Assembly: GCF_000092905.1 (NCBI RefSeq)
Contig: NC_014098.1
Span: forward strand, 558,001-622,000
Direction: 5' to 3'
Length of the DNA: 64,000 nucleotides
Source of the DNA: Kyrpidia tusciae DSM 2912
GTDB taxonomy: Bacteria > Bacillota > Bacilli > Kyrpidiales > Kyrpidiaceae
A program made the position numbers and the translations under genes. The first letter of the stretch is position 1. Every line of letters begins with the position of its first letter. Positions 59,734-64,000 of this stretch are shown piece by piece. The notes below the pieces were generated by a model. The model was given only the letters and a program-made list of their open reading frames with translations. It did no database searches and had not been told where the DNA came from.

Positions 59734-59838
59734 CTCTTATCCAGAGTTGGCGGAGGGACGGGCCCGATGATGCCGCGGCAACCGGTCGGAACACCGGCAC
59801 GGTGCCAATTCCTGCGGGGAGACCCCGGAAGATGAGAG
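59734..59838 (+). ncRNA. SAM-I (S-box) riboswitch aptamer
   Basis: S-adenosylmethionine-binding leader RNA. P1 is formed by CTCTTATC (59734-59741) and GATGAGAG (59831-59838). Conserved core elements follow in order: CAGAG-TTGG-CGGAGGGA, GGCCCGATGATGCC-GCGGCAACC, and GGTGCCAATTCC. High SAM would favour the downstream terminator and lower metF expression. Confidence 0.93.
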
Positions 59839-59937: not shown

Positions 59938-60831
59938 ATGTACAATGTGCACGGTTTACGGGAAAAGTTAGCCCTCGGCAAGTTTGTGACCACGGTGGAG
60001 TTGGAGCCGCCCAAGGGGGCGGATCCCTTGCCCACCATGGAAGCGGCCAAATTCCTCCGGGGCAAGGTGGATGCGGTGAATATCGCGGACAGTCCCATGG
60101 CCACCCTGCGGATGAGCCCCATCGCCTTGGCTCACATCGTCCAGGAGGATCTGGGCCTTGAAGCGATTTTTCACCTGACCTGTCGGGACCGCAATCTGCT
60201 CGGCCTGCAGAGCGAATTGTTGGGTGCGGCGGCCCTCGGGGTGCGGAACATCCTCACTTTGACCGGGGATTCTCCCAGCCGGGGGGATCATCCCGAGGTC
60301 AAAGGGGTGTTTGAGACCGATTCCATCGGTTTGGCCCGGCTGGCTGAACGGCTGAACCAAGGCTACGACTTGACCGGCCACGAACTGAACGGCCCGACCC
60401 GGTTCTTGATCGGCGGGGTGGCCAATCCCGGGGCGGAAGATTTGGACGCCGAAGTGGCCAAACTGGCGGCCAAGGTGGAAGTCGGGGTTCGCTTCGTTCA
60501 GACCCAGCCGGTGTTCGATATCGAGACGGCCTTGCGTTTTTGGGAGCGCACCCGCCACCTGCCGGTCCACATCCTGTTCGGACTTCTGCCCCTCAAGTCC
60601 GCCCGCCAAGCCCGCTATTTTAACGAGAAGGTGCCCGGGGTGCGGGTGGGGGAAGACGTGATTCAGAAAGTGGAAGAAGGCGGCCGGGCTGCGGGAATTG
60701 CCCTCTGCCGGGAGTTGTACGGGGGACTGAGGGAGTTCGCGGCCGGCGCCCATCTCTTTCCCATCGGGGACCTGCGGGCGGTGTACGAGATCCTGGATAT
60801 CGACACCGATCTTCGCCGGGCTGCGATGTAA
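59938..60831 (+). CDS. metF: Methylenetetrahydrofolate reductase family protein
   Basis: TIM-barrel flavoenzyme reducing methylene-tetrahydrofolate to methyl-tetrahydrofolate for methionine synthesis. The 297 residues include the folate-site segment TTVELEPPKGADP, VNIADSPMATLRMSPIALAHIVQ, FHLTCRDRNLLGLQSELLGAAALGVRNILTLTGD and QTQPVFDIETALRF, all MetF family features. The SAM riboswitch upstream supports a methionine role. No other methionine gene follows, and trpS is convergent. ATG 59938 follows a G-rich SD (GGGGGGATCTGGGG). Confidence 0.93.
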   Translation: MYNVHGLREKLALGKFVTTVELEPPKGADPLPTMEAAKFLRGKVDAVNIADSPMATLRMSPIALAHIVQEDLGLEAIFHLTCRDRNLLGLQSELLGAAALGVRNILTLTGDSPSRGDHPEVKGVFETDSIGLARLAERLNQGYDLTGHELNGPTRFLIGGVANPGAEDLDAEVAKLAAKVEVGVRFVQTQPVFDIETALRFWERTRHLPVHILFGLLPLKSARQARYFNEKVPGVRVGEDVIQKVEEGGRAAGIALCRELYGGLREFAAGAHLFPIGDLRAVYEILDIDTDLRRAAM

Positions 60832-60924: not shown

Positions 60925-61995
<1,071 letters not shown>

Positions 61996-62036
61996 TTACA
62001 TTCGGCAAAATCGTCGATGGCGAGGGGGGACGGGCG

Positions 62037-62915
62037 TTGGCCGAGGTTGACGTGGAGAAAAAGGCGGCCGGGCGGATGTTGCAACCGGCCAAGGGGTATC
62101 TGACAGGGTTCACCCATTCGTTGAACCCGTACATCGGGTGCGCCTTTGGCCGACCGGTGGACAACCTCGGCCGGGACGCGGTCGGCTGCCCCTACTGTTA
62201 CGTGCGGCGCCTGCCGGTGGCTTTACTCCATCCAAAACCCTGGGGGACCTGGGTGACTGTCAAAGAGGGTGCCCCGGAACGCCTCCGCCGGGAACTGCGG
62301 CACAGCCGGGTTCGGGGGGAGACACTCAGAATCTTCCTGGGCTCCTCCACAGACCCCTATCAGCCGGTGGAAGGGCGATGGAAGATCACCCGGGAGTTGC
62401 TTCGGGTGATCGCGGAAGAAGGAGGCGTCGACCAACTGGTGGTTCAAACCCGTTCCCCCATGGTTCTCCGGGATGTGGATCTTCTGCGAGCCCTGGGCAA
62501 AAAAGTGCGGGTCAGTCTCACCGTGGAGACCGATGACGAGAACGTCCGCCGCCTGCTCACCCCGACCTCACCGCCGGTCTTCGGGCGCATTCGGGCCTTG
62601 GCGCGATTGCGAAGGGCCGGCGTCCTCACTCAAGCGGCGGTGTCCCCGGCCTTGCCCATGAACCCGGACCGGCTGGCCCGGTTGCTCGCCGAGGCGGCGG
62701 ACCGGGTAGTCCTGGATACCTTTCACTTGGGAGACGGATCCGGTGGAAAGCGGAGCCGGCTGCTGGGCATGGCCCGGCGGCTTGAAGCGGCCGGTTATGA
62801 GGGGTGGTTTGACCCGGATCTTCATCTGCGCCTGATCCCGATCTTCGTAGGCATTCTCGGCCCCGGACGGGTAGGGCTGGGAGCCGCGGGATTTGCCGGA
62901 ATGAACTTGGCTTGA
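62037..62915 (+). CDS. SPL-family radical SAM protein with unusual Cys spacing
   Basis: 292-residue radical SAM protein resembling the Rv2578c/spore-photoproduct-lyase-like group: LNPYIGC...CPYCYVRR, then LGSSTDPYQPVE, RSPMVLRDVDLL and SLTVETDDE. In the family the cluster motif is normally Cx3Cx2C; here C35, C51 and C54 give Cx15Cx2C, a 12-residue insertion between the first two ligands. The TTG at 62037 follows SD GAGGGGGG by 8 bases; an upstream ATG at 62017 is out of frame. The product is cytosolic; the substrate is unknown. Confidence 0.82.
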   Translation: MAEVDVEKKAAGRMLQPAKGYLTGFTHSLNPYIGCAFGRPVDNLGRDAVGCPYCYVRRLPVALLHPKPWGTWVTVKEGAPERLRRELRHSRVRGETLRIFLGSSTDPYQPVEGRWKITRELLRVIAEEGGVDQLVVQTRSPMVLRDVDLLRALGKKVRVSLTVETDDENVRRLLTPTSPPVFGRIRALARLRRAGVLTQAAVSPALPMNPDRLARLLAEAADRVVLDTFHLGDGSGGKRSRLLGMARRLEAAGYEGWFDPDLHLRLIPIFVGILGPGRVGLGAAGFAGMNLA

Positions 62916-62933
62916 CCACCGCACCCTAGGGAA

Positions 62934-63260
62934 GTGAAAGGAAGGGGGCGGGTCGGGTGGATACTCTGGGACATGGGTTTTGGATGTACGCCCCTGTGGA
63001 GCGCGGTGATGGTGGCGGCTCTCATTGGCCGATTTCGGGCCGCGGCAGCGGTGGCCGCCGGGGCCGGGCTCCATATTGCCGTGGACCTGTTCACCCACCG
63101 CCAATTTGCACCGGCCTACCTGTATCCTTTTTGGTCTTGGCCGATCGCCGGCTGGGTGGAATCCGCATCCTGGTGGTTTGTCGCGGCGGATTTGGCCGCC
63201 ATGGCCGCAGTTTTCCTCTTTATTTGGCTTCGCCGGCGGGATACAATGAAAATTGGGTGA
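62934..63260 (+). CDS. Small membrane protein
   Basis: 108-residue protein with about three predicted helices (residues 17-31, 37-50 and 78-99) and a basic C-terminus ([11 protein letters not shown]). The segment [14 protein letters not shown] resembles the HxxxDxxTH part of YdjM-type metal-dependent membrane proteins, but only this short piece is present, so function is not assigned. GTG 62934 lies after AGGGAA, a weak SD. It is 18 bases after the radical SAM gene and 5 bases before uvrC, suggesting one operon. Confidence 0.6.
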
Positions 63261-63265
63261 GCGGA

Positions 63266-64000
63266 ATGATCGAGGAAGATCGCTGGTTGAAGGAGAAGTT
63301 AGCCCTCCTTCCCGGCAAACCCGGCGTCTATCTGATGAAGGACTCCGAGGGTCGGGTGATTTACGTCGGGAAGGCGAAAACGTTAAAAAATCGCGTGCGT
63401 TCGTATTTTACGGGCAGCCATGACGCGAAAACCCAGAAACTTGTCTCGGAAATTCGAGATTTTGAATACATCGTGACGGACAATGCGGTGGAAGCGCTGA
63501 TTCTGGAGTGCAATCTGATCAAGCAGCACCAACCCCCCTTCAACATCATGCTCCGAGATGATAAGTCCTACCCGTATATCAAGATTACCCGGGAGGAACA
63601 CCCCCGCCTGGAGATCGTCCGGCGGATGGCCAAGGACGGAGCGTCCTACTTTGGCCCGTATCCGAACTCCGGTTCGGCGATGGAGACCAAGCGCTTGTTG
63701 GATCGCCTCTACCCGTTGCGCAAATGCCGGAATCTCAAGAAAAAGGTCTGTTTGTACTACCACATCGGCCAGTGTCTGGCCCCGTGTGAGTATCCCGTGG
63801 ACCCGGAACGGTATGAGGCGATCCGCAAGGACATCGGGCGGTTCCTGAACGGGGGCCACGGGGAAATTGTCGAGGAGCTGGAGCGGCGGATGCACGAGGA
63901 AGCCGAAGCTCTGCGCTTTGAACGGGCGAAGGAGCTCCGGGATTTGATCCAGCACATCGGGCGGGTGATGGAGAAGCAGAAGATCGTGTTTCAAGACCAG
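63266..64000 (+). CDS. uvrC: Excinuclease ABC subunit C (3' truncated by window)
   Basis: Nuclease of nucleotide-excision repair that cuts both sides of UvrB-marked lesions. The visible 245 residues contain the N-terminal GIY-YIG domain ([33 protein letters not shown]), the following [28 protein letters not shown], the Cys-rich [29 protein letters not shown] and the UVR motif region in [17 protein letters not shown]. The full protein is about 600 residues, so the rest lies beyond 64000. ATG 63266 follows the membrane protein by 5 bases with a weak SD. Confidence 0.96.

Follow-up and report, generated by a model that had tools for sequence, protein, structure and literature searches.

Can a protein whose presumed cluster cysteines are spaced Cx15Cx2C, in place of Cx3Cx2C, be a working radical SAM enzyme, and what do its extra residues mean? 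The gene that raises this question lies in a stretch of 64,000 nucleotides of Kyrpidia tusciae DSM 2912 (hereafter the window), whose genome is a single contig of 3,384,766 bases and 99.99% complete. Read directly from the DNA, the motif runs TGC (62139-62141), GCC-TTT-GGC, 36 nt (62151-62186), TGC (62187-62189), CCC-TAC and TGT (62196-62198), i.e. C35-AFG-RPVDNLGRDAVG-C51-PY-C54 in the protein. This reading bears out the Cx15Cx2C spacing reported in the initial annotation, and C35, C51 and C54 are the only cysteines among the 292 residues. The annotation's radical SAM assignment also stands, with a match to Pfam Radical_SAM (PF04055) at 43.9 bits, above the cut-off of 29.5. The relevant features are as follows.

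62037-62915, forward strand: radical SAM protein with a predicted spore photoproduct lyase (SPL) fold, 292 aa, TTG start (Pfam and NCBIfam profiles, fold match)
62139-62141, forward strand: codon of Cys35, first presumed 4Fe-4S ligand, directly after strand beta1 (63 of 63 rows of alignment A3; beta1 is 32-34 in the model)
62151-62186, forward strand: 36-nt stretch encoding 12 extra residues, R39-G50 (alignment against Cx3, Cx7 and Cx11 relatives); its edges may move by one residue, with Gly at either end
62187-62198, forward strand: codons of C51-P-Y-C54, with presumed ligands two and three (Cys columns without variation in A3; helix from 55)

Alignment A3 has 63 rows, counting the window protein and excluding two Cx6Cx3C proteins, and the C35, C51 and C54 columns are invariant in all of them.

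Our favoured reading, to which we give a probability of about 0.8, is that the gene encodes a working radical SAM enzyme with the SPL fold, with the cluster held by C35, C51 and C54 and the 12 residues extending the beta1-alpha1 loop. It draws on observed sequence, conservation, purifying selection and phylogenetic grouping, and on a predicted fold; cluster binding, SAM cleavage and the position of the extension are the parts that we infer. Specifically, the three cysteines would hold one [4Fe-4S] cluster, whose fourth iron would bind SAM for cleavage to a 5'-deoxyadenosyl radical. The extra residues would form a lobe on the beta1-alpha1 loop between ligands 1 and 2, leaving CPYC and the core undisturbed (cf. 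CX14CX2C in QueE), and this lobe may cover or flank the active site and tune access to it. Across the subfamily, the same segment takes the form x3, x5, x7, x11 or x15.

The insert itself is genuine. In a first alignment of 29 homologues, the 12 extra residues are found in 2, the window protein and its 96% identical counterpart in genome G001 (L003), and are absent in the remaining 27. The two inserts are separated by a single substitution (A48T), and because the same insert occurs in a second genome of the genus, it is neither chance nor a sequencing slip. Between these two genes, dS is 0.126 and dN is 0.021 (simple Nei-Gojobori count, 291 codons), and the dN/dS of 0.165 indicates purifying selection on the gene. 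A decaying gene or a sequencing or assembly error is thus vanishingly improbable, given also that the 36 nt keep the frame and that this site holds loops of x7 and x11 in relatives; sequencing error and pseudogene are both ruled out by the second-genome insert and the dN/dS. Four genomes of the order were examined, and the gene is present in two (the window genome and G001), and in the remaining pair, 86% and 79% complete, only the PA0069-type paralogue is seen. As for the origin of the insert, tandem duplication was looked for in the window DNA and none was seen. A perfect 8-nt inverted repeat (62149-62156 and 62179-62186) brackets the 36-nt insert but is imperfect in G001, and a 12-nt direct repeat (83%; 62149-62160 and 62209-62220) touches the insert edge. 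Repeats at the insert edges are given no weight, because the right arm differs in the sister genome.

How isolated is this loop length? Among 213 distinct subfamily proteins with a readable motif, a non-random sample picked by score, 175 are Cx3Cx2C, 29 are Cx7Cx2C and 4 are Cx11Cx2C, alongside 2 Cx15Cx2C, 1 Cx5Cx2C and 2 Cx6Cx3C. These derive from 214 distinct proteins longer than 230 aa, taken from phylum genomes (6 of 398 matching) and class genomes (116 of 398) at E <= 1e-40, from the family of G777 (19 of 41) and the class of G782, a MAG record's genome (32 of 148), at 1e-50, and from the best 80 of 581 relatives in named genome contigs. Left out of the counts at 230 aa or less were L111, L031 (broken frame) and the fragments L025 and L286, as was L282, which is long enough but ends before the motif. 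The L031 homologue, from G365, has its frame broken by a stop near the start. A further 53 places read in the class sample comprise 52 Cx3Cx2C and one ending before the motif.

Long loops occur in 5 of the 116 matching class genomes, as x15 in G000 and G001 and as x11 in G477, G777 and G539. The x11 proteins belong to Alicyclobacillus pomorum, A. contaminans, a Symbiobacteriaceae MAG (the sole match at 1e-50 among 154 genomes of its class) and one more genome of the window's class. Every one of the 29 x7, one x5 and two Cx6Cx3C proteins comes from the class of G782, in which two named records are titled Deltaproteobacteria MAG and Proteobacteria MAG. Members with x7, x11 and x15 loops share the segment xFG...G-C-P-[YF]-C, which places the extra residues at one common site. 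In the homologue search that the initial annotation had proposed for this insertion, x15 recurs in G001, and otherwise x7, x11 and x5 lengths and Cx6Cx3C were found. At the level of sequence, x15 is the extreme end of a loop-length series and not a unique oddity.

The Cx5Cx2C protein (L212:1495-2343, forward strand) has the spacing reported for HmdB, and the distant Cx6Cx3C relatives (L214:2981-4027, forward strand; L215:3052-3936, reverse strand) differ in the second gap as well. Pfam Radical_SAM has no match in L214 and a match below cut-off in L215. As far as their sequences go, these two relatives show that in distant members not even the second gap is fixed. Elsewhere, a plasmid search returned 61 records, four of which cover at least 80% of the query, with the top one 48.6% identical. 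No relative was found in 80 pattern stretches of viral contigs or in a first scan of genome contigs.

We asked how these loop lengths are distributed in a tree built without the loop (74 rows, i.e. 38 long-loop or odd-spaced, 27 Cx3 and 9 PA0069-type). The 27 Cx3 representatives form one clade (99/97), with the window protein and all 38 long-loop or odd-spaced rows outside it, and the nine PA0069-type paralogues group apart (100/100). One clade (97/97) consists of 29 rows, every one of them x7, and another (100/97) of three x11 proteins out of the four; the mutual branching order of the long-loop lineages is left without resolution. The AU test gives no grounds to reject one clade uniting all 38 rows (p-AU 0.544), and the tree constrained to it has a log-likelihood 2.65 above that of the free search. 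With the x5 and Cx6Cx3C rows set apart, the x7-x15 group needs three changes and is monophyletic in 0% of 200 bootstrap trees; on the starred branches alone, one change is forced. These figures come from a tree whose bootstrap is not fully settled and in which L215 is a long branch. In an earlier quick tree that included the loop (144 rows), 8 long-loop rows need two changes and 124 Cx3 rows group together (97).

A single origin of the long loop is possible on these trees but not proven, and rooting on the PA0069 group also leaves open an ancestral long loop that was shortened later. The suggestion that the insertion marks a distinct subgroup therefore holds in a wider form, in that the Cx3 clade excludes the 38 rows and their unity is not rejected; x15 itself is only the series extreme and is seen in two closely related genomes of one genus. 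A fuller scenario would have an unrecognised SPL-fold subfamily with an adjustable cluster loop. Gaps of 5, 7, 11 and 15 and the Cx6Cx3C form would each characterise lineages; the long loop would have a single origin and might be the ancestral state of the subfamily, with the common Cx3Cx2C of Bacilli as a secondary shortening; and the loop would control how substrates gain access, with the same ligands throughout. Taken as a whole, we consider this scenario unlikely.

Structure prediction places the extra residues in the expected loop. A first model, from 14 sequences, has a pLDDT of 87.1 with residues 42-45 below 50, and a second AlphaFold2 model, from 63 sequences, reaches a mean pLDDT of 94.3 and a pTM of 0.92. 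In the latter, strand beta1 (32-34) is followed by the loop and by helix alpha1 from residue 55, i.e. C35 falls just past beta1 and C54 just ahead of alpha1, which is the usual radical SAM placement. Residues 41-50 have a mean pLDDT of 70 and a three-residue turn at 42-44; few parts of the model, in which there is no cluster, are less certain than this loop. The structure prediction called for in the initial annotation thus indicates that the insert extends the beta1-alpha1 loop, at limited local confidence. That annotation had also held that the insertion must change the cluster-holding loop. The extra residues do sit there, yet with all three ligand positions conserved the geometry of the cluster need not change. 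Its description of the protein as SPL-like is supported by the predicted fold, as the six best matches of the second model to solved structures are all SPL chains (Z 18.4-18.8, rmsd 3.3-4.0, 243-248 residues aligned), followed by lipoyl synthase (Z 15.1). Two other structural comparisons likewise rank SPL first, one of them a Foldseek search with the first model, in which the TM-scores by query length are moderate at 0.50-0.62, and sequence searches against solved structures gave chance-level matches only.

What the longer loop does can be explained in two ways. An exposed loop may simply tolerate insertions and drift neutrally in length, the extra residues having no specific role, and we see this as somewhat less likely than not. 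The insert residues are poorly conserved, the x7 loops are Gly-rich and local model confidence is lower, all of which fit drift; the uniform length in 29 of 29 x7-clade rows, however, argues for some constraint. That uniformity, together with the x11 clade and the FG...G-C-P-[YF]-C pattern common to x7, x11 and x15 members, is in line with a functional innovation in which the loop contacts substrate, partner or SAM and the reaction differs from that of the Cx3Cx2C group, an explanation that we find possible, with the odds leaning against it. Outside its edges the insert varies between lineages, which a spacer would fit equally well, and the Kyrpidia-type sequence retains some Cx3-like residues (TDPYQP). 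When eight long-loop proteins are made into a profile, five of these eight score 465-511 bits against it and outside x7 proteins 358-456, with Cx3 proteins at 309 or less, as innovation would have it. Yet the x5 protein scores 317 and the Cx6Cx3C proteins 227 and 176, so the profile measures relatedness and not the loop.

A more radical alternative is that C35 is not the first ligand, i.e. that C51, C54 and another residue hold the cluster, or that there is no cluster. The unusual spacing and the Cx6Cx3C of the distant L214 and L215 could be taken in its favour, but the window protein has no fourth Cys, the C35 column is invariant, and PMC4389238 describes a QueE structure with an extended first gap. 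We therefore judge it very unlikely; homologues using another Cys as first ligand were not seen in the 63 rows.

The neighbourhood gives few hints of function. Besides the radical SAM gene, the flanking features are:

60925-61932, reverse strand: class I tRNA synthetase (W/Y type), divergent neighbour outside the feature
62934-63260, forward strand: small ORF, neighbour only (YdjM PF04307 at 18.4 bits, below the cut-off of 29)

The gene order in the window is the divergent tRNA synthetase, the radical SAM gene, the small ORF and then a uvrC-like gene, and the upstream neighbours are common to the window and G001. We clustered by blastp the neighbours in 37 loci (21 long-loop or odd-spaced, 16 Cx3). 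The radical SAM gene itself clusters in 34 of the 37, the ORF picker having chosen an opposite-strand frame in three, and no cluster besides the gene occurs in more than 5 of the 37 loci, i.e. there is no widely conserved neighbour among them. In 5 of 12 x7 loci, the gene directly upstream, on the same strand, encodes a PD40-repeat protein (e.g. L084:4251-5981, forward strand; one of the five scanned), a possible local partner there; it is absent from the window. Among ten sampled neighbours, eight match assorted Pfam families and two match none. Further upstream in the window, a SAM riboswitch (RF00162, 87.1 bits; 59734-59838, forward strand) is followed after about 100 bases by a methylenetetrahydrofolate-reductase-like gene (59938-60831).

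We take the window protein to be a member of COG1533. According to PMC8565304, SplB radical SAM proteins (COG1533) are under SOS control in several species. A LexA-like box (CGAAC-N4-GTTCG, <=2 mismatches) is not found upstream of the gene, and across the whole window this pattern has 44 matches against 41.7 expected. The sole exact palindrome, at 63663-63676 within the uvrC-like reading frame, is probably due to chance. A scan of 61850-63350 for sigma-70-like promoters found none (0.2 expected). A role in nucleic-acid repair or modification, guessed from the fold alone, is the best guess as to function, though a doubtful one.

Overall, the oddity is confirmed as part of a loop-length series within a subfamily with a predicted SPL fold. 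Motif searches that demand Cx3Cx2C would overlook the ligands of such enzymes. The graded loop lengths on one fold are also a natural experiment in how far a cluster loop stretches, and matched short- and long-loop homologues are on offer for direct tests.

The short-loop partners are among the closest known relatives. The Cx3Cx2C subfamily, mostly from Bacilli, is homologous to the window protein over its full length and has the TDPYQ, ETD and GDG motifs in common with it, its 27 A3 representatives being 38-53% identical; it differs in its short first gap (175 distinct proteins) and in forming a clade without the window protein. Homology to PA0069, Rv2578c and rSAM_mob_pairB lies inside residues 24-222. 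For the window protein, scores fall far below cut-off for PA0069 (NF033668, 104.7 vs. 360 bits), Rv2578c (NF038135, 75.5 vs. 430) and rSAM_mob_pairB (TIGR04470, 80.1 vs. 410), so that no curated family name applies and "Rv2578c-like" is right as to homology but only a distant one. Each of the 63 proteins in A3 has matches to the same four NCBIfam models (E <= 1e-10), the cut-off comparison being for the window protein only. The PA0069-type paralogues, including the one in the same genome (L002), are Cx3Cx2C in 15 of 15 distinct cases, unlike the window protein. NF038136 aligns to residues 71-217, and judging by the offsets in the profile, the intein-bearing Rv2578c family has its intein upstream of the residue-71 position, perhaps within or close to this Cys loop.

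SPL (PDB 4FHC, 4FHE, 4FHF, 4FHG, 4K9R and 4RH0) is the closest solved fold, at 13-14% identity in structural alignment. It requires a critical cysteine, according to PMC5682303, and its PDB titles mention C140 mutants, whereas all three cysteines of the window protein belong to the motif; SPL chemistry using an extra Cys is therefore excluded. The closest parallels in loop architecture come from other families, and here the likeness is one of loop length compared from descriptions. Considerable variations of the radical SAM motif are known (PMC5682303): CX14CX2C of QueE is described as a canonical motif for the cluster in which a single loop is lengthened (PMC4389238), the methyltransferases PoyB and PoyC have Cx7Cx2C (PMC5682303) and HmdB has CX5CX2C (PMC4389238, PMC5682303). 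A literature search found no paper joining "radical SAM" and "CX15CX2C". In QueE, PoyB/PoyC and HmdB, as in the window protein, it is the gap between ligands 1 and 2 that is lengthened; stretched first gaps are already known in other radical SAM families, and the Cx15Cx2C described here is a further such variant.
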